Shown piece by piece: positions 7,304 to 40,804 of a stretch of DNA of 40,804 nucleotides. The translations under genes and the position numbers were made by a program. Within the stretch, counting starts at the first letter, position 1. Every line of letters begins with the position of its first letter. The notes under the pieces are model-generated. The model did no database searches, had not been told where the DNA came from, and worked only from the letters and a program-made list of their open reading frames with translations. The DNA is from a virus, in IMG/VR virus record IMGVR_UViG_3300034375_000507, positions 1 to 40,804 of that record; one strand, written 5' to 3'.

Positions 7304-8413
7304 TTACTTGTATTTGCCTTTTACACCAAACTTTTTCTTATGTTCAGCAATAGACTCTTCTTTTAGTCGAGTGGTATATAGTTTGTCTTTAAATGTAAAC
7401 GTTGCTTTCTTTGCTTTACGATTACGTTTAAATGCTGCACCAAAAGACTCATCACTAACTGGACCAGCAGCGGGTTTCTTTAAGTTAATACCTTTACCTT
7501 TTTCAATTTCAGTTTTAGAAACTCTAGCTCTAGGGCTTGGTTTAACTTCAACATCACCTTTTTTGACTTTCTTTTTACCGCCAAGAGCCATTATTGTTCC
7601 AGCAACACCAGAACCTAACCCTATTATCAACGGGAGATTAGACTGCCTACCTTTTGAAGTAGAAGTTTTGGAAGTCTTAGAACCTGGTTTAGTAGGTTTA
7701 GCACCTTTACCCTTAGAGTTAGAAGTCTTCGAAGTAGAGGAAGGCTTAGGAGCTGGATTAGCTTTAGAAGTTTTATTATTAGAAGTTTTAGAGTTCTTAG
7801 CAAGAGGTTTAACAAGTTTAGCATTAGCTCCTTTATTCGTAGAAGTCTTTGAACTAGTAGATGGCTTAGGTGCTGCATTTGCCTTAGATCCTTTACTGGT
7901 AGAAGTCTTTGAAGTTTTTGAAGGTGGCTTAGTAGGTTTAGCTTGAGAACCTTTACTATCAGAAGTCTTAGAGTTTTTACTTAAAGGCTTAGTAGGTTTA
8001 GCTTGAGAACCTTTACTATCAGAAGTCTTAGAGTTTTTACTTAAAGGCTTAGTAGGTTTAGCACCTGCACCTTTACTATCAGAAGTCTTAGAGTTTTTAC
8101 TTAAAGGCTTAGTAGGTTTAGCACCTGCACCTTTACTATCAGAAGTCTTAGAATTAGTAGAAGGTCTTGCAGCTGGATTAGCTCTTTTACCTTTAATATT
8201 AGATGTATTAGAACTTGAAGAAGGCATTCTACCTTTTCCACCCCTAGTTCTAACTGTTCTTAAATTAGATAATTGTTTAGGAGTACCTGCAACTACTTTA
8301 CCTTTAAATCCTTTAGGTGCTTTTTTAGCTCCCATTGCTATTGCTCGTTGTAATAATCTTTTACTTACAAACCTAAGTCCTATGCCCCCAAGGACGTATA
8401 TTACTGGTAACAT
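7304..8413 (-). CDS. Histone H1-like repeat protein with two hydrophobic segments
   Basis: A 369-residue, very basic protein. Residues 2-16 are hydrophobic (LPVIYVLGGIGLRFV). Residues 67-258 are about ten units of 20 residues with consensus NSKTSDSKGAGAKPTKPLSK, the Lys/Ala/Pro/Ser composition of histone H1 tails. Residues 259-276 form a second hydrophobic segment (LPLIIGLGSGVAGTIMAL). The C-terminus has SFGAAFKRNRKAKKATFTFKDKL, a 'SF..AF..ar..gk.tF.f.gk.Y.T' motif that I recall from other marine phage proteins. It sits between lysis genes and a virion-type protein. Likely binds DNA or negatively charged envelope surfaces; whether it is a virion component cannot be seen. Repeat number may vary between relatives. 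Confidence 0.7.
   Translation of the reverse strand: MLPVIYVLGGIGLRFVSKRLLQRAIAMGAKKAPKGFKGKVVAGTPKQLSNLRTVRTRGGKGRMPSSSSNTSNIKGKRANPAARPSTNSKTSDSKGAGAKPTKPLSKNSKTSDSKGAGAKPTKPLSKNSKTSDSKGSQAKPTKPLSKNSKTSDSKGSQAKPTKPPSKTSKTSTSKGSKANAAPKPSTSSKTSTNKGANAKLVKPLAKNSKTSNNKTSKANPAPKPSSTSKTSNSKGKGAKPTKPGSKTSKTSTSKGRQSNLPLIIGLGSGVAGTIMALGGKKKVKKGDVEVKPSPRARVSKTEIEKGKGINLKKPAAGPVSDESFGAAFKRNRKAKKATFTFKDKLYTTRLKEESIAEHKKKFGVKGKYK
7640..8215 (-). repeat. In-frame 60-bp tandem repeats, about ten units
   Basis: The DNA coding residues 67-258 of the basic protein repeats every 60 bases. The units between about 7925 and 8160 are almost identical at the DNA level (same run covering TTTAGCTTGAGAACC or TTTAGCACCTGCACC, then CTTTACTATCAGAAGTC). 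Outer units have diverged. Near identity of inner copies means recent slippage or recombination. Confidence 0.9.
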
Positions 8414-9334: not shown

Positions 9335-9630
9335 TACCACTTAACCTTATCTGCCCAATAGGCTGCTGACATCTTACCCTTCTTAATATTCTTGGCGTGT
9401 CTAGACTTAAATGATTTTCTTTTCTTCTTCATTTTATCAGATTCACCAGACTTAGGTTTACCTGCTGTAGATGCGCCTTGCTCACCAAAACGAATAAGTT
9501 TATACTTGCCACCCTCTGATGCCATAACGACATGAGACTTAGTGGCATGATCAGGAGTACGCTTAGGTTTGTTTACGCCCCTTAGTCCAAGACGTTTCAT
9601 AGTTGCTTTGACTCGATCAGGTACTGCCAT
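9334..9630 (-). CDS. Conserved basic phage protein
   Basis: A 98-residue basic protein with KYKLIRFGEQGASTAGKPKS in the middle and KSFKSRHAKNIKKGKMSAAY near the C-terminus, ending WADKVKW. The pairing of a 'YklirFGeQG' strand with an 'RhakNi.kgKmSaaYWa.KVkW' helix is a pattern I know from many marine phages, without an assigned function. Downstream of the endolysin with a one-base overlap, and overlapping the next gene. Probably virion-associated or DNA-binding given its charge; not demonstrated. Confidence 0.65.
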   Translation of the reverse strand: MAVPDRVKATMKRLGLRGVNKPKRTPDHATKSHVVMASEGGKYKLIRFGEQGASTAGKPKSGESDKMKKKRKSFKSRHAKNIKKGKMSAAYWADKVKW

Positions 9631-10142
9631 TAGATCATACTCAATGCTTGTTCTAGTGTTTCTTTGTTTCGTCTAGTCCAACCACGACCAAACGTCTTAA
9701 AGGTATCTAAGCCTTCATAGAAACCTTGACGAACAGTATATACATAGTCGATAATAAACTTTGGATCTTTTTCCATGATAAGACCTAGTGTCTGTGGACC
9801 GATTGCTCCATCAGCTGTAGCTCCTACTGCACGTTGGATAGCTTTAGCTGGACGACCAGAACCTGAATTCACAGCCCAGTCAAATGCACACCAGTCTACA
9901 CCAGATGGTAGATGATCACCTTTAACTCTATCCCAGTAATTCTTTTTGTATATTGGCCCGACATCTTCTGGGGTTAGATCTCTCATCTCCTGCTCAGTAG
10001 ATTCCCTGCCGATCCATTCATCATAGACTCTTTTAGTAACACCGAGGTTAGTCATACCACCAGGGTCACTAGGATGATTTACATATCCACCTTCATGGTG
10101 TAGTAACATCTCTAAACATTTATCAAAGTTGTTTTTCATCAT
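9630..10142 (-). CDS. Endolysin, GH108 N-acetylmuramidase with peptidoglycan-binding domain
   Basis: A 170-residue lysozyme-like enzyme that cuts the glycan strands of peptidoglycan at lysis. The glycosyl hydrolase 108 signature is near the N-terminus: LLHHEGGYVNHPSDPGGMTN, whose Glu (about residue 17) is the catalytic acid, followed by LGVTKRVYDEW. The second half (WCAFDWAVNSGSGRPAKAIQ, then GAIGPQTL) is the usual PG_binding_3 module. No signal peptide is present, so release depends on a holin; the holin-like gene lies directly upstream with a 4-base overlap. Length is normal for the family. Assignment is firm. Confidence 0.93.
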   Translation of the reverse strand: MMKNNFDKCLEMLLHHEGGYVNHPSDPGGMTNLGVTKRVYDEWIGRESTEQEMRDLTPEDVGPIYKKNYWDRVKGDHLPSGVDWCAFDWAVNSGSGRPAKAIQRAVGATADGAIGPQTLGLIMEKDPKFIIDYVYTVRQGFYEGLDTFKTFGRGWTRRNKETLEQALSMI

Positions 10143-17769: not shown

Positions 17770-18858
17770 ATGAAGTATACAACTAAGACTAGTCGTAAGA
17801 ACGGCAGTACGTCTTGGGTATTTAGACCACCTCAAGATGTAGTGTCAGCAGGTATAGTTAAGAGCCAGACATTTAGAGATGGTCGTACTGCAAGGGTAGA
17901 GATACCAAAACTATTAGATAAGATAGATGCCTTTCGTAAAGGTGATTTAGTAGCAGGTGATATAGGTAGGTTGTCCAACCTTAATCAGATTGTTGGACAT
18001 TACTTCAAGACTAAACACTTTAATTCTCTGTCGTTAAACACTCAAAATAATTATACCCATAACCTTAAATGTATTTGTCGTACAGAAATATATGGCAAAG
18101 AGTTTGGTAGTTTTAGAATTGATAGGATAACTACACCAGTATGTACTGAAGCCTACGATACATGGGAAGAAGATGTTAGTACTAATACAGCTAATGAATA
18201 CAGTAGGTCTCTATCTATGATCATGAATTACTGTCGTTCATTAAACGTTGTTAATAACAACCCTGTAACTCATGTTAACAAGAGAACTCATGAGACACGT
18301 TCAACTACATGGACTAACGAAAATGTTGAGAAGTTCTGTGATGTAGCCTTCTCTGACTTTAAGTTTAGAAACATAGGTCTATGTGTACTCATGGCTTACG
18401 AGTGGGCGCAACGTCCTATTGATATCTACACTCTCAAGTGGGACAACATACATTTTGATATCGACATGGTAAAGATACGTCAGAGTAAACGTGGTGCTAC
18501 TGTTGAGCTACCATTAGAAGAACCTCTGACATCCATGTTACTTGATCAGAAGAATGACTGGGACTTCCAAGAATATGTAGTACCCTTTCAGAGGCCTTCA
18601 GATGGGGCATACAGGCCGTTCAACCATTCCTCTGCAGGTATACTAGTCAGACAGATAAAGGAGCTGTCAGGGCTACCCCCTGAGCTACGTGTGGGTGATC
18701 TTAGGAAGACAGCCATCAACCAAATGATTGACAGTGAGATAGACCACCTTGCAATCATGTCTGTTACAGGGCATAAGAATGTGGCAAGTCTTAACCCATA
18801 TGTTAAACACAATTTAAAAGCGGCTAAGTCCGCATTAAGTAGGAGAAGTAAGGAATGA
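17770..18858 (+). CDS. int: Tyrosine recombinase (phage integrase)
   Basis: A 362-residue site-specific recombinase that would join phage and host DNA at attachment sites. The N-terminal arm-binding and core-binding parts fill residues 1-190. The catalytic half shows Arg215 (EWAQRPIDIYTLKW), a beta-hairpin lysine (KIRQSKRGATVEL), Arg312 in VGDLRKTAINQM, His335 in VTGHKNV and the nucleophile Tyr344 in LNPYVKHN, 9 residues after His335 as in lambda Int. The His usually three residues before the second Arg is Gly309 here. The stop overlaps the next gene by 4 bases. Integrase surrounded by virulent-type replication genes is seen in several marine podoviruses. No attachment site was identified. 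Confidence 0.9.
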   Translation: MKYTTKTSRKNGSTSWVFRPPQDVVSAGIVKSQTFRDGRTARVEIPKLLDKIDAFRKGDLVAGDIGRLSNLNQIVGHYFKTKHFNSLSLNTQNNYTHNLKCICRTEIYGKEFGSFRIDRITTPVCTEAYDTWEEDVSTNTANEYSRSLSMIMNYCRSLNVVNNNPVTHVNKRTHETRSTTWTNENVEKFCDVAFSDFKFRNIGLCVLMAYEWAQRPIDIYTLKWDNIHFDIDMVKIRQSKRGATVELPLEEPLTSMLLDQKNDWDFQEYVVPFQRPSDGAYRPFNHSSAGILVRQIKELSGLPPELRVGDLRKTAINQMIDSEIDHLAIMSVTGHKNVASLNPYVKHNLKAAKSALSRRSKE

Positions 18859-35325: not shown

Positions 35326-35855
35326 TACACATTCCTCCGTGACATAAGACCCATTGGTTTAGGCTCTTCTTCGGGTTCTTCCATCATAGGTTTTTCTTCT
35401 GAAGGAACATCTTTTTCTAGTGGAGATAAATCTATCTCTTCTCCATCTTCAATATCTTTTAGTATATCTTCTACTTCTTTCTCACGTAATGCCATGTTTA
35501 CTTCACGTAAATCTATATCTTCTTCACCATCATTTAGACCTTCATTATAGTCTATGTTAGCCGCATCTCCGATACCTTTTATATATTCATGTATAATAGG
35601 CGCAATGATTAAGCTTACATCTACACTGTGTCTACCTTCTGCAACAGCACCACGAAGAATACCTTCAGTCATTGTTACAACATCTAAGTCTAACGATAAT
35701 AATCCTACAACAGACTTTACTTTCTTAGGTTTACCTAATCTTTCTATGTGCCACATTACAGCTTCTTCTGGTGTAGTCATCTGCGGTGGGTTTTCCCAAG
35801 GAGAGTTCTTTGGTTCTGAGGTCAATGACTGACCAGGAATAGGTGCACTAAACAT
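35325..35855 (-). CDS. Acidic virion-operon protein, unknown
   Basis: A 176-residue protein. The first part is soluble with a Pro-rich start (PGQSLTSEPKNSPWENPPQM); the C-terminal 75 residues are extremely acidic (EGLNDGEEDIDLREVNMALR, then EEKPMMEEPEEEPKP). Overlaps both neighbours by one base. Acidic assembly proteins can act as chaperones for basic partners or as scaffolds; this is only a possibility. Confidence 0.6.
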   Translation of the reverse strand: MFSAPIPGQSLTSEPKNSPWENPPQMTTPEEAVMWHIERLGKPKKVKSVVGLLSLDLDVVTMTEGILRGAVAEGRHSVDVSLIIAPIIHEYIKGIGDAANIDYNEGLNDGEEDIDLREVNMALREKEVEDILKDIEDGEEIDLSPLEKDVPSEEKPMMEEPEEEPKPMGLMSRRNV

Positions 35856-36589
35856 TATTGTGATCCTTTATTATATTTTTCAGCTTTATCAAACCTTGAT
35901 TTTAAATTAGGTTTTCCTGGACGTAGATACTTTTCAGATACAACCCTTGCCGCTTCTTTAGCAGTTGTTGTTTTCTCTAAGTCCTTCATGAATCTACCTT
36001 CAGATGTATTACGTATCTCATGTATTAAAAAACCAAAGTTAGCTTCGTAAGAATTTATAGGTGTATTATTCTTCTGCGCCCAAGCTTCAAACTCTTTACG
36101 TCTTGATCCTGTCCACTGAGCAAAACCATAACCACCTTTAGAACCTTTAATAGTAGGTTCTATCTCTTGCATAAATTTAAACCCAAGAGTCTCATGATCT
36201 AGGTTAGCTACAAAACCTGCTGCTTGCTCTTTAGTTAGACCTAAAGTTTCCTCTAAGTCTCCCATTAAATTCATACCTACTTCACTAACTTTGAAGTCAA
36301 CTTTAGGTCTGTCATCAGCTAGAACCATACCAGCAGCTTCACCTGTTGGTAAAGTATCTTCATAACTAGCTACTTCATTCTTTAATTCTTTATTGTAGTT
36401 GATAACTTTCTTATAGATGTTAGACATATTATCTACTGAAGGTTGTTCTTCTTCACCTTTAGGTTTTTTAGACATCAAGCCATCTCTTAACATCAAGTTT
36501 TTATCCATAGGCTCACTAGAGTTAGCATCCTCACTAGGAGTTAGTTTTTGTCTAGCTAGTTGTAGTAGCTCTTTATATTGTAGACTCAT
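35855..36589 (-). CDS. Phage tail lysozyme-like virion protein
   Basis: A 244-residue protein with a disordered N-terminal half and a lysozyme-type domain from about residue 105. Key pattern: EQAAGFVANLDHETLGFKFM, with the Glu of HET as likely acid, then KGGYGFAQWTGSRRKEFEAW and the closing helix RVVSEKYLRPGKPN. This is the tail-lysozyme form (PF18013-like) that opens peptidoglycan during DNA entry, distinct from the GH108 endolysin used for lysis. It sits in the ejection-protein operon, which supports a virion location. Confidence 0.82.
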   Translation of the reverse strand: MSLQYKELLQLARQKLTPSEDANSSEPMDKNLMLRDGLMSKKPKGEEEQPSVDNMSNIYKKVINYNKELKNEVASYEDTLPTGEAAGMVLADDRPKVDFKVSEVGMNLMGDLEETLGLTKEQAAGFVANLDHETLGFKFMQEIEPTIKGSKGGYGFAQWTGSRRKEFEAWAQKNNTPINSYEANFGFLIHEIRNTSEGRFMKDLEKTTTAKEAARVVSEKYLRPGKPNLKSRFDKAEKYNKGSQ

Positions 36590-36590
36590 C

Positions 36591-38669
36591 TTAAATACCT
36601 CCCAGAAGATCTAATCCAAATTTTGTGAACACAGCCCACTTATCTGATTCCTCTTGTGTGTCCCTAACCTTCTGATACTCTTCGTATTTCTTATCAGCTA
36701 GTAATATATCTAATGCACGAGTCTTAGAAGCCTCTGCACCTTTATATGCATAGTCCATAAGATCACGTTCACGTTGCCATATCTGATCTATAGTACCTTG
36801 AGTAAATGCATTAGCTGCTTGAGCTTGTTGCATATTAGCTTGGTTCTGTGCCTGTGAATTATATGTAGCTACGTTCTGTCTCCACTGTGCATTAGCTTGA
36901 GCAATTACTAAAGCATTTTTAGCATTAAACTCTCTACGTTGATTTTCAATCTGAGCATTAAATTGTCTAGCCGCATTAGTTACACCAGAATTAAACTGTT
37001 CTGTGGTATTAAGTTGTGTAGCATTAAACTGTTGAGTCTGTAACTGGAGATTAGCCATGAACTGTTTAGTCTGTGTCTCGGATGAAGCATTAAATTGTTT
37101 AGCTGCATTATCTGCTGCTTGATCTGTAAATAATGATTGTATTATTTGTTGAGACTTAAACATTTCCATCTGTTGATTGTTGTTTAAGTTAGCCATATCC
37201 ATATCTAAGAAAGACTTAGCATTTTGTACTGCAGCTTGCTGTTGATTAGATAGATTTTGTTGTTCTAGATTAGCAACAGATGCTGCTTGAGCCATCACCA
37301 TAGCTTGATTATTACTTAGGTTGTTTAAATTAATCGTATTAGCATTACGTGAGTTCTCAAGCGCAATAGATTGTTCAGCTGTAAAGTTCATATTTGCTAT
37401 ATCAGAAATCTTAGCTGAGTTAGCAACACGAGCTTGAAAAGCTTGATCAAATTCTTGTCCTATAAATGTAGCACGTTGTTGTGCGGCAAGCATAGCACGT
37501 TGTTGTCTGTTTGACAAGTTTTGCATTTCAAAACCTGCGACAGTTTGGGCATCTTGCATAGCTATAGGTAATGCAGATTCCATTGCTGCTTGTACAATAG
37601 CTTGACCTGCCATTGATGATGCACCTAAACCTCTAGCCGCCATCTGTGCATTAGCATTACGCATTGCTCCAGCTGCCCATGTAGGAGTAGCACCACCTTC
37701 AAAGTCTTGCATAAGATCATCAAGCTGACCTTTTACAGTAGCTTTTTCTGATGGTGTTGCAGTAGCCGCTTGTATCTGTTCAGAAAATGCCGATGCCTTA
37801 GTAGCATCAGCTACTCCAGTAACTATCTCCCCCTGCTGTATCTCTCTTTGTACTGGGTTATCCATTACTGTAGCTGTACCTTGAGCCGCAGTTACAGTTG
37901 ATACATCAGTGGTTGTAGGATCTTGTGTAGAAGCTTGTACTACACCTTCAGCAGAGACAGTGCCTGTAGCAGCTTTAGAAGCGTCTGTGGCCGCCTTAAC
38001 AGCATCTGCGGCTGTAGTAGCAGTCATAGTAGAAGCAGTAACTGGAGTAGCTCCTGCAGCTATATTAGTAGTGTCAACAGTAGCTGGAGCATACATTGCA
38101 CCTGGACCTGTAACAGCACCTGTACCTGTAGCTATAGTACTACCTGCTAAGTTAGTATCTACAGTAGCTACATCAGGTGATTTAGCTAATGACCCAGGGT
38201 CAGTAATAGCTTGTGAGACTAATTCACGAGTTTCTGAAGCTAAGTCAGCAGCTCCACCACTCTGTGCATCTTGCATGGTTTTATTTAATGTGGCTAACTT
38301 AGCATTTAAAGCTGCAGATATTTTTTCTGCACCGTAAGTTACACCAGGTTTTGGAGTAGCATTAGCTGCTTGTATTTGTAGTCCAGTTTTTGCTATAGTA
38401 TCTAAGCCATCACCAGTAACATTTGATACTGCTGCATTAAGAGCTTTTGTATATTCAACAATAGAAGCTGCATCTTTATCCACTACAGCTTCAGCAGCTC
38501 TCATGGCTGCTTCTGATTCATAAACCTGACCTTTTAGTTCTGGTTTAGAAGATGTAAATCTAGGTAACTCTGGGGTAACTTGACCTCCATCATCACTACC
38601 ACCACCAAACACAGCTCGGTCTCTGAAGTGAACACTAGGCATAAAAGGATTATAAAGACTTCTGCTCAT
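36591..38669 (-). CDS. Gln/Asn/Ala-rich coiled virion protein
   Basis: A 692-residue low-complexity protein. Residues 60-270 are Ala/Thr/Val-rich with no clear fold (ATDASKAATGTVSAEGVVQA). Residues 330-600 are long Gln/Asn-rich helices with repeated NLSNxQQ and QFNxxxE motifs (MQNLSNRQQRAMLAAQQRAT, TKQFMANLQLQTQQFNATQL), typical of coiled internal virion proteins. The end is more globular (KWAVFTKFGLDLLGGI). Position matches the first of the ejection proteins (T7 gp14/gp15 slot). No enzymatic motif. Confidence 0.68.
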   Translation of the reverse strand: MSRSLYNPFMPSVHFRDRAVFGGGSDDGGQVTPELPRFTSSKPELKGQVYESEAAMRAAEAVVDKDAASIVEYTKALNAAVSNVTGDGLDTIAKTGLQIQAANATPKPGVTYGAEKISAALNAKLATLNKTMQDAQSGGAADLASETRELVSQAITDPGSLAKSPDVATVDTNLAGSTIATGTGAVTGPGAMYAPATVDTTNIAAGATPVTASTMTATTAADAVKAATDASKAATGTVSAEGVVQASTQDPTTTDVSTVTAAQGTATVMDNPVQREIQQGEIVTGVADATKASAFSEQIQAATATPSEKATVKGQLDDLMQDFEGGATPTWAAGAMRNANAQMAARGLGASSMAGQAIVQAAMESALPIAMQDAQTVAGFEMQNLSNRQQRAMLAAQQRATFIGQEFDQAFQARVANSAKISDIANMNFTAEQSIALENSRNANTINLNNLSNNQAMVMAQAASVANLEQQNLSNQQQAAVQNAKSFLDMDMANLNNNQQMEMFKSQQIIQSLFTDQAADNAAKQFNASSETQTKQFMANLQLQTQQFNATQLNTTEQFNSGVTNAARQFNAQIENQRREFNAKNALVIAQANAQWRQNVATYNSQAQNQANMQQAQAANAFTQGTIDQIWQRERDLMDYAYKGAEASKTRALDILLADKKYEEYQKVRDTQEESDKWAVFTKFGLDLLGGI

Positions 38670-39088
38670 AATTTAAACTCTTTCGTATGTCTCTTATCTG
38701 GATCGTGTAGCCTACGCCAGTTTACTTTTTCTTTTCGTTTATATGTTTTGTGATGCTGTTTACGAATCATAGACATTACTTGTCTTGCATGTCCGTAGGG
38801 TGTTACAAACTCAATACCCCATAATTCCTCTTTGTTATCGGATACATAATCATTTTCAGTTATGTAGTAGTTGTTAGATAGTAGATCTTTACTAGATTGT
38901 TTATCTAACCAACACCAAGTTACTAAACCTATTGGCTTATCACCTTGATAATATAGACTGATACGGTTATGTTTTATTGGAGCTATTAGATATCTGTAGA
39001 TGTCTTCTACATTATAAACCTTATGCCACTTACTTTGCCTAAATAATTCTAAACCATCTGCTAGAGCTTTATTATTATCTATTTGCAT
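38666..39088 (-). CDS. HlyC/RTX toxin-activating lysine acyltransferase-like protein
   Basis: A 140-residue protein matching the HlyC family, which moves fatty acyl groups from acyl carrier protein to lysines of RTX toxins. The order of motifs fits: His22 (SKWHKVYNVEDIY, the HlyC His23 position), RISLYYQGDKPIGLVTWCWL (the 'P.ayvsWa.Ls' strand), NYYITENDYVSDNKEELWGI and the core EFVTPYGHARQVMSMIRK. HlyC has Asp92 in 'WFIDWIAPFG'; here the residue is Glu93. The C-terminus is shorter and very basic. It is the first gene after a promoter whose predicted start falls on its ATG, and it has no Shine-Dalgarno site. The substrate could be a virion protein; that is inference. Confidence 0.78.
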   Translation of the reverse strand: MQIDNNKALADGLELFRQSKWHKVYNVEDIYRYLIAPIKHNRISLYYQGDKPIGLVTWCWLDKQSSKDLLSNNYYITENDYVSDNKEELWGIEFVTPYGHARQVMSMIRKQHHKTYKRKEKVNWRRLHDPDKRHTKEFKL

Positions 39089-39129: not shown

Positions 39130-39630
39130 TCAGTCTGCTAAAGGGTTATCTAATGCTCTTTGTAGTTTAGCATTGAGTCTATCTTCTAGTTCTTTCATTG
39201 CTGAAGACTGTGATACTCTTACACGTTCTCGTTGATTCTCGAACCTTACTTCAGCATCGTCTATCATGGAACGTACCTTGTCTTCATTATCACGTACCAT
39301 ATCTTCTACTCGATCTGTCTGTTGTTCTATTCTTAACAGATCATCCTTTAGACCATTCTTAATATCTCTAGTGTACTCTACACTCTCTTCAACCTTCTCA
39401 GATATACCTGATACCTTAGCATCCATGACATCCATCTGTTGTTGGTATGCAGTTAAGTCTAACCCTGCAACTTCTTCTATCTTTTGATATAAAGTGAAGC
39501 CACCATACAAACCACCAACTACTGTAGATAAGAAAGCTAGTATAGCTAGTACTGAACCTGCTGTTAGTTTTACACCACCAGCTTTCACTTCTCTGTCAGC
39601 TAGGCTTTCAACGTTAGTTAAATCTACCAT
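39130..39630 (-). CDS. Membrane-anchored coiled-coil protein
   Basis: A 166-residue protein: short N-terminal domain (VDLTNVESLADREVKAGGVK), one membrane helix at about residues 23-48 (LTAGSVLAILAFLSTVVGGL), then more than 100 residues of charged coiled coil (VSGISEKVEESVEYTRDIKN; RIEQQTDRVEDMVRDNEDKV). The topology suits a spanin-like or virion-associated rod. It follows the exported proteins with a one-base overlap. I recall similar proteins in marine podoviruses but no proven role. Confidence 0.65.
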   Translation of the reverse strand: MVDLTNVESLADREVKAGGVKLTAGSVLAILAFLSTVVGGLYGGFTLYQKIEEVAGLDLTAYQQQMDVMDAKVSGISEKVEESVEYTRDIKNGLKDDLLRIEQQTDRVEDMVRDNEDKVRSMIDDAEVRFENQRERVRVSQSSAMKELEDRLNAKLQRALDNPLAD

Positions 39631-40046
39631 TAGTTCTCAAAGTCCATACCACCTGACTGTTGCAGGTTCTTCAATGCTTCTAGCTCATTACGTAGTTGTT
39701 GTATCTCTAGTCTACGTTGGGCTAACTCTACCTGATATAAGTCGTCACAATTAATACGAGACTTAGGTTTATCAAGAGGTATAACAACACGGGCATACAA
39801 TCCTACATCTTTACTCTGGTGTGAAAAACTTGATGGATTAAATGTACCACCTACATTATTGACTACACCTGTAACACCAAACTCTAAGTTTACACCACCA
39901 CCTACAGCATTACTACAGTCTAAGTTACCTGCCCTAAATCTATCTGATTGATAGTTCATTGGTGGGTTAGGTAGTGTTAGAGCTAGGTTGTTACTCTCAG
40001 CTAATGCTGAACTAGCTACGACACATAGAGCTAATGCTAATCTCAT
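39630..40046 (-). CDS. Exported protein with C-terminal coiled coil
   Basis: A 138-residue protein with a clean signal peptide (RLALALCVVASSALA, cleavage likely before Glu17). The mature part has two cysteines (GNLDCSNAVGGGVNLEFGVT and SRINCDDLYQVEL) that could form a disulphide in the periplasm, a beta-rich middle (DVGLYARVVIPLDK) and a C-terminal coiled helix (QRRLEIQQLRNELEALKN). Start overlaps the previous stop. This type recurs at the late end of marine phage genomes; its job is not known. It probably acts in the periplasm or outer membrane. Confidence 0.7.
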   Translation of the reverse strand: MRLALALCVVASSALAESNNLALTLPNPPMNYQSDRFRAGNLDCSNAVGGGVNLEFGVTGVVNNVGGTFNPSSFSHQSKDVGLYARVVIPLDKPKSRINCDDLYQVELAQRRLEIQQLRNELEALKNLQQSGGMDFEN

Positions 40047-40429
40047 GCTGGTACACCATCAATACGTGAGCATATCCTAGAGACAACCAATGTTCTTGAC
40101 TGTGTTTTCTTTTTTACCTTTGATGTAGTACAAATATATGTAGCTTCATCTAAATCTAACTCACGTATATACACAATAAAATCTTTACGTTCTTTATAAC
40201 CTACTTTAATGATCCTATACTTAGACGAGAATGGTATGTTTGTAAAGTTTAAATCAAACAAATCTATCTGATAATACTCTACATCTTCTCTTGAGTTAAA
40301 CAAAGACATCTCTGCTTTAACTACACCTGCTACGTAAGTAGGTTTTAGTACTGGGTAGGCTGGTGTCATTTCATGTGCAGAAACAACAGTAGCCCAACCC
40401 ATAAACGCTATGATTAGTTTACTTAGCAA
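40043..40429 (-). CDS. Exported PapD-like chaperone (putative)
   Basis: A 128-residue protein. I choose the TTG at 40429, which overlaps the previous stop and gives a perfect signal peptide (LSKLIIAFMGWATVVSA, then HEM); an ATG at 40489 would add 20 residues that overlap the upstream gene and spoil the signal. The mature part is a beta-sandwich-like chain (AEMSLFNSREDVEYYQIDLF, then SSKYRIIKVGYKERKDFIVY) resembling the first Ig domain of periplasmic pilus chaperones, with two cysteines. Next to an adhesin-like product it fits a chaperone/subunit pair. The resemblance is from pattern only. Confidence 0.5.
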   Translation of the reverse strand: MLSKLIIAFMGWATVVSAHEMTPAYPVLKPTYVAGVVKAEMSLFNSREDVEYYQIDLFDLNFTNIPFSSKYRIIKVGYKERKDFIVYIRELDLDEATYICTTSKVKKKTQSRTLVVSRICSRIDGVPA

Positions 40430-40804
40430 TACAGGTAGCCTGTACAACTGCAGTGTATGTACCTCCCGGAAACGGTTTAGCTGAACCATATACAGCAGAT
40501 GATGCGGTAGAGAACCATGCTGATCCTGCTAGTGTAAGATTAAATTTAGATGTATTGCCTACCATTACTTTAGCACCATTGTAAGCTGACATTCCTGACA
40601 CAGACATCTTTGTTACAGTGGTACTACCTGTCCACGCAAGTGTATCTGTAAGGTTCGGTGAAGAACTAAAGGATGTAGGGTGAGTTATGTTTGCAGTGTA
40701 TGAGTCTGCAATAGATACATCAATCCTAATTACAGGTAATACACCACCATCTGAAGGTGTTGTGCTTAACTTACTGGCAATAGGGTTGCCGTATACACCA
40801 GCTT
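40419..40804 (-). CDS. Adhesin/fimbrial-like exported protein (partial, N-terminus off window)
   Basis: An open frame enters from the right edge and ends at 40419; 127 residues are visible (an internal ATG at 40607 is probably not the start, because the frame is open and protein-like upstream). Sequence is Thr/Ser/Ala/Gly-rich and beta-type (VLPVIRIDVSIADSYTANIT; KFNLTLAGSAWFSTASSAVY), ending GGTYTAVVQATCIAK. This strand pattern resembles fimbrial or spore-coat-U-like subunits. It overlaps the chaperone-like gene by 11 bases. It could also be a phage tail or receptor-binding piece. Family uncertain. Confidence 0.5.
   Translation of the reverse strand, partial: AGVYGNPIASKLSTTPSDGGVLPVIRIDVSIADSYTANITHPTSFSSSPNLTDTLAWTGSTTVTKMSVSGMSAYNGAKVMVGNTSKFNLTLAGSAWFSTASSAVYGSAKPFPGGTYTAVVQATCIAK

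Follow-up and report, generated by a model that had tools for sequence, protein, structure and literature searches.

Three overlapping genes at the right end of an HMO-2011-type podovirus contig, here named E3, E4 and E5, are real genes that evolve under purifying selection, keep their neighbourhood and recur in phages of several lineages, with a natural loss of the module in one phage. All three products carry predicted signal peptides, as judged by sequence inspection, and modelling gives E4 the fold of one domain of a pilus chaperone and suggests that of a chaperone-usher pilin for E3. Our preferred reading, held tentatively and at slightly less than even confidence, is that the trio forms a dispensable, usher-less envelope module that remodels or shields the surface of the infected cell, resulting in superinfection or adsorption exclusion.

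Source contig and gene arrangement

The window, that is, the whole stretch of DNA analysed here, is an IMG/VR virus record of 40,804 bases. Its phage is placed among the HMO-2011-type podoviruses because its terminase shares 82% identity with the enzyme of Roseobacter phage CRP-13 and 66% with the one of HMO-2011. Relatives of E4 on bacterial-genome contigs were found only in one Rhodobacteraceae bin, which suggests Rhodobacteraceae as the host family. By inspection, an open reading frame at 17770-18858 (plus strand) resembles a tyrosine integrase, from which the phage may be temperate; some HMO-2011-type subgroups have integrases (PMC9038755). A 369-aa protein at 7304-8413 (minus strand) consists mostly of repeats resembling SKTSDSKGAGAKPTKPLSKN. 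The trio lies within the late structural gene cluster, together with a 244-aa protein (35855-36589, minus strand) that contains a phage tail lysozyme domain (PF18013, E = 6.9e-26). Between E6, the gene that follows E5, and a large virion-like protein, a homologue of HlyC-type RTX toxin acyltransferases is encoded at 38666-39088 (minus strand; PF02794, E = 2.5e-20). This gene is present in some related loci only, and its product may modify a protein of the phage by acylation; no RTX toxin was seen in the vicinity.

The original prediction placed two overlapping genes at the end of the window, the first of them lacking its N-terminus, and both open reading frames are present (40419-40802 and 40043-40489, both minus strand). 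The missing part was recovered from the locus L001 (IMGVR 3300021375_000044), which is 100% identical to the window's part of E3. The complete protein starts with MRITMKYLTALLSLCALPAFA, and the signal peptide on which the prediction depended is clear by inspection. A third exported protein with cysteines and a coiled coil had also been described and corresponds to E5, just outside the interval first named. The features are as follows:

L001:122-676, upstream of E3: E1, 184 aa, signal-like N-terminus and hydrophobic C-terminal stretch
L001:603-1475, upstream of E3: E2, 290 aa, signal-like N-terminus
L001:1472-1972: complete copy of E3, 166 aa, with signal peptide
40419..40804, minus strand: 3' part of E3 (ORF 40419-40802), pilin-like exported subunit, 127 codons plus stop, open at the contig end
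40043..40429, minus strand: E4 (128 aa from the likely TTG start), an exported PapD-like protein of one domain with signal peptide MLSKLIIAFMGWATVVSA
40043-40489, minus strand: E4 as the listed open reading frame from ATG 40489, 148 aa
39630..40046, minus strand: E5, exported, two conserved cysteines, likely C-terminal coiled coil, the best-conserved marker of the trio
39130..39630, minus strand: E6, membrane-anchored coiled-coil protein, adjacent to and co-linear with the trio

E4 probably starts at TTG 40429, since a TTG or GTG is found 17-20 codons ahead of the mature HEM in 86 of 86 distinct relatives, 40 of which have no ATG or GTG further upstream. ATG 40489 was rejected as the start because this codon is not conserved. 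Given the TTG start, E3 and E4 overlap by 11 nt and E4 and E5 by the sequence ATGA. A circular window, in which the frame of E3 would stay open across the joined ends and fuse it to a 730-aa ORF at 2-2191, was also rejected: this fusion is regarded as an artefact because the contig has no terminal repeat and E3 of L001 has its own start and signal peptide. A hydrophobic, signal-like N-terminal stretch was detected in all five genes from E1 to E5 by inspection and hydrophobicity.

Median dN/dS values of 0.13 for E3 and 0.10 for both E4 and E5, together with the conserved gene order, identify the three reading frames as real genes. All 117 distinct HMO-type loci that extend far enough downstream keep the order E3-E4-E5-E6, and E2 and E1 precede it in most. 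Across 48 non-redundant loci, correlations of 0.48-0.73 were obtained between the pairwise distances of the genes E2 to E5, a range to which shared descent and linkage contribute. For E6, which is equally closely linked to E5, the correlations with E2-E5 in the same set amount to 0.15-0.25, within or near the shuffle range. Because its evolutionary distances correlate poorly with those of E1-E5, E6 probably stands outside the module. Defence-system profiles returned a weak coiled-coil match of E6 to ZorA and nothing else. Relatives of E1 occur in pelagiphages and CRP phages, and E2 had no match in named phages.

Predicted folds of E3 and E4

AlphaFold2 models were generated from alignments of 61 relatives for E4 and 49 for E3 and reached pLDDT values of 90.3 and 90.8, respectively. 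In a Foldseek search of the PDB, the model of E4 is matched first by the pilus chaperones FaeE, FimC, PapD, SfaE, Caf1M and DraB, all with probability 1.00. Pilus chaperones make up most of the list, which also includes the MSP domain of VAP-A, a member of the same superfamily. The assignment of the predicted E4 fold to the N-terminal domain of PapD-type chaperones is well supported. Mature E4 is about 110 aa long and forms one domain, so the L-shaped architecture of two immunoglobulin-like domains is not found. Its two conserved cysteines fall in the final pair of strands, an arrangement also known from FGL-type chaperones, for example Caf1M. E4 thus shares with the PapD, FimC, FaeE and Caf1M chaperones a predicted fold, export, an adjoining pilin-like gene and two cysteines in these strands, but differs from them in having one domain instead of two, in the absence of a sequence match and in that no usher was detected in the phages searched.

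For E3, the first PDB matches are to the CFA/I pilin CfaB, followed by FimF, FimG, Caf1, the pilin domain of PapG and PapA; the best of these pilin matches have E-values of about 1e-3, and other beta-sandwich proteins, namely AP2 mu subunits and SdrE, are interspersed among them. The model shows little order in the ten residues with which mature E3 begins, and these follow the pattern V-x-I-x-G-x-V...C. This flexible N-terminus and the subsequent cysteine may correspond to the N-terminal extension of chaperone-usher pilins, a donor strand with alternating hydrophobic residues, and in hhalign comparisons with 20 E. coli K-12 pilins the N-terminal stretch alone was aligned, with a probability of 5%. 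The second cysteine of E3 is located at the very C-terminus. This end-to-end placement differs from the usual pilin disulphide and might lock the subunit. With CfaB, Caf1, FimF and PapA, E3 appears to have the predicted fold and export in common, whereas the lack of a sequence match, the C-terminal position of the second cysteine and the missing usher set it apart. A search of a viral structure library gave no match for E3 at E <= 0.001 and no clear relative, so that a tail fibre is not favoured.

Searches of Pfam, NCBIfam and PDB sequences identified no match of E3 to pilin families (PF00419, PF05229 and relatives) and none of E4 to PapD_N (PF00345), and hhalign comparisons of E4 with nine K-12 chaperones remained at background. 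The profile search that had been proposed against PapD, spore coat U and fimbrial families thus returned no sequence match for either protein. The PapD-like and fimbrial look that had been noted is borne out by the predicted folds, but not as membership of these families by sequence. No usher (PF00577) was detected in 11 records comprising the window, related contigs and five Vibrio phages, some of the virus records being fragments, in a search for which E. coli served as positive control. Among genomes of the likely host family, an usher is present in 7 of 198. Since a sequence match and an usher are missing and E4 has a single domain, E3 and E4 are not classed as members of the chaperone-usher families, which they appear to resemble in predicted fold only.

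One use of a pilin-like subunit would be a surface fibre or amorphous coat on the infected cell, comparable to Caf1, built without an usher or via an unrecognised one and serving, for example, to aggregate infected cells or to keep progeny near new hosts. The closest folds to E3 are indeed those of polymerising pilins, and its disordered N-terminus carries the donor-strand-like pattern. Against these points stand the absence of an usher from the phages searched, the small number of ushers in the likely host family and the placement of the E3 cysteines at the two ends, which is unlike the usual pilin disulphide. We regard a surface polymer as unlikely, and below the preferred reading of an envelope module that shields the cell.

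Taken alone, each Foldseek result is suggestive, with modest E-values of 1e-3 to 1e-2 and TM-scores of about 0.5-0.6. Considered jointly the matches are stronger, because two overlapping genes independently resemble the two interacting partners of one system. E3 and E4 might instead be generic immunoglobulin-like periplasmic domains whose likeness to pilins and chaperones is convergent and uninformative about mechanism. Such convergence would agree with the lack of sequence homology and with the moderate TM-scores and E-values, but the matches of E4 are strikingly specific to pilus chaperones rather than to immunoglobulin folds in general, and the pilin likeness of its overlapping neighbour arises independently, which makes this explanation improbable.

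Distribution and genomic neighbours in other phages

Relatives of E3 were found in 179 Vibrio phage records, as were relatives of E4, and these records represent several lineages. The Vibrio phages inspected were the T5-like pVp-1 and Pylo, the 83-kb PS14A.1, the 58-kb 1.205.O, vB_VhaS-tm and D81. E3 is followed by E4 in all of them, and a recognised E5 comes next in all but D81, in which E5 was matched by similarity search only, between annotated genes. In Vibrio phage 1.205.O, E4 is an unannotated open frame with a signal peptide (L322:7396-7674). The E3, E4 and E5 proteins of pVp-1 belong to PHROGs 25895, 25455 and 37374, respectively, all listed as unknown function and linked in that library neither to each other nor to a fold. 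Window-lineage E3 matches PHROG 25895 (5.8e-5) and window-lineage E5 matches PHROG 37374 (E = 2.9e-6), and hhalign comparisons of the window lineage with the Vibrio proteins gave 90% for E3 and 97% for E5. As these two approaches agree independently, E3 and E5 of the window are considered homologous to the Vibrio proteins. The profile match of window E4 to Vibrio E4 is weak (6%), yet the genes are co-linear and syntenic.

Between lineages, hhalign values for E5 range from 90 to 98%. Further homologues of E5 occur in phages of Klebsiella, Raoultella, Stenotrophomonas and Erwinia and in phages named Serratia, many of which are jumbo phages. In four of these records and in Vibrio phage 2.275.O, E5 is flanked by exported proteins of 111-127 aa and 157-167 aa in the order E4-E5-E3, that is, an E4-like protein, E5 and an E3-like protein. 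The flanking proteins are similar to E4 and E3 in where they lie, in length and in the arrangement of their cysteines: for E4, two in the mature protein, 14-20 residues apart and near the end, and for E3, an early one and another at the very end. By contrast, hhalign detected no sequence homology of the enterobacterial E3-like and E4-like proteins to E3 and E4 of the window. Treating them as counterparts would extend the module to these phages. Scans of IMG/VR with profiles of Vibrio E3 and E4 and of enterobacterial E5 added only known isolates.

Five Vibrio lineages carry, immediately upstream of the trio, two large fibre-like genes that are homologous between the lineages; the term is a reading from size, repeats and position, and PHROGs lists both genes as unknown. 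E1 and E2 take this upstream position in the window lineage. Additional small genes were observed near the trio. A lipoprotein-like gene with an SGC motif follows E5 in several Vibrio phages (pVp-1 gp80; L187:6942-7100 and relatives) and is also present in douglas 12A4; its product could be Llp-like or o-spanin-like. Near the trio of D81, a gene annotated as the lipid A acylation protein PagP (L323:11607-12044) is possibly another envelope-modifying gene.

A natural deletion was found in the T5-like phage VF16. Its gene 67 is a fusion of pVp-1 gp74, the gene upstream of the fibre-like pair, to an E5 without signal peptide (L345:5737-6297), which leaves out the two fibre genes as well as E3 and E4. 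Neither E3 nor the second fibre turned up in the rest of the VF16 genome; for E3 this result is weaker, its search having been run without a positive control. At least one isolated phage can therefore probably do without the module.

The joint loss of fibres, E3 and E4 in VF16, the two fibre-like genes that travel directly ahead of the trio in five Vibrio lineages and the location of the window trio inside the late structural gene cluster would all fit proteins that fold in the periplasm and end up on the outside of the virion, joining the fibres when virions meet them at lysis. Export, however, separates the trio proteins from virions that assemble in the cytoplasm, the fibre partners are absent from the HMO-type lineage, and periplasm and signal peptides go unmentioned in the main text of a structure paper on a Klebsiella jumbo phage. 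The literature yielded no virion proteomics for any carrier phage. We consider a virion part improbable and retain, tentatively, the envelope module as the better explanation.

Possible role in the infected cell envelope

In the proposed mechanism, E3, E4 and E5 would constitute a three-protein envelope module that is exported via the host Sec pathway. E3 would provide the subunit with a chaperone-usher pilin fold, E4 a single immunoglobulin-like domain with the fold of the N-domain of PapD-type chaperones, and E5 a small exported partner with a coiled coil. E4 may fold or cap E3 in the periplasm, and E3, with E5, may end at or in the outer envelope without an usher. There, E3 and E5 would shield or alter the surface, so that the infected cell and the debris left after lysis stop adsorbing phage. 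We infer the binding of E3 to E4, the final location of the proteins and an effect on exclusion rather than on another property of the envelope. Several features favour adsorption exclusion: the module is exported, it shows conservation and not variability, a phage can probably do without it and, in the Vibrio phages, it adjoins fibre-like genes in the manner of llp and oad.

In T5, llp, which encodes the receptor blocker, is located next to oad, the gene for receptor binding (PMC4728585, PMC9586334). As with Llp of T5 and BF23, the trio comprises phage-encoded envelope proteins, and in Vibrio phages it sits beside large fibre-like genes. In contrast, Llp is a single small lipoprotein, whereas the trio consists of separate proteins whose signal peptides are of the ordinary kind and lack a lipobox. 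The comparison is offered as an analogy only, the window lineage being without the Vibrio fibre genes.

Among the alternative roles, the surface polymer ranks first, the virion part second and a role in lysis last. A spanin-like action in lysis or outer-membrane disruption is very improbable: holin and endolysin are five genes away from the trio in pVp-1, and coiled coils occur in E5 and, along with a membrane anchor, in E6, but a lysozyme-like gene of the window (9630-10142) is far from the trio, and VF16, without E3 and E4, retains holin, endolysin and an annotated Rz-like spanin. A wider proposal can be added to the shielding module, namely that an exported module of ancient origin is common to tailed phages that infect three or more host groups (probably Rhodobacteraceae, Vibrio and enterobacteria), and that its PapD-like chaperone of one domain and its pilin-like subunit form an usher-less, adsorption-controlling envelope structure, a minimal virus-encoded relative of chaperone-usher pili. 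This proposal is doubtful, if less so than a surface polymer.

No published description of a phage chaperone-pilin pair or trio was found among open-licence papers. The genes of the trio are labelled 'hypothetical protein' in about 200 sequenced phages and also occur in hundreds of marine viral contigs. The trio is carried by many unrelated bacterial viruses, without a pilus-building channel in the records searched, and probably changes the cell envelope during infection. As tailed phages assemble in the cytoplasm, the conservation of three exported proteins with folds like those of pilus systems suggests that a stage of infection in the periplasm or at the outer membrane has been overlooked. 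Carrier isolates are available on Vibrio, Klebsiella and Erwinia, so the function of the trio is directly testable. Should the trio block adsorption, superinfection exclusion would gain a new family; should it polymerise, the product would be an usher-less pilus-like structure, which could bear on the origin of chaperone-usher pili.
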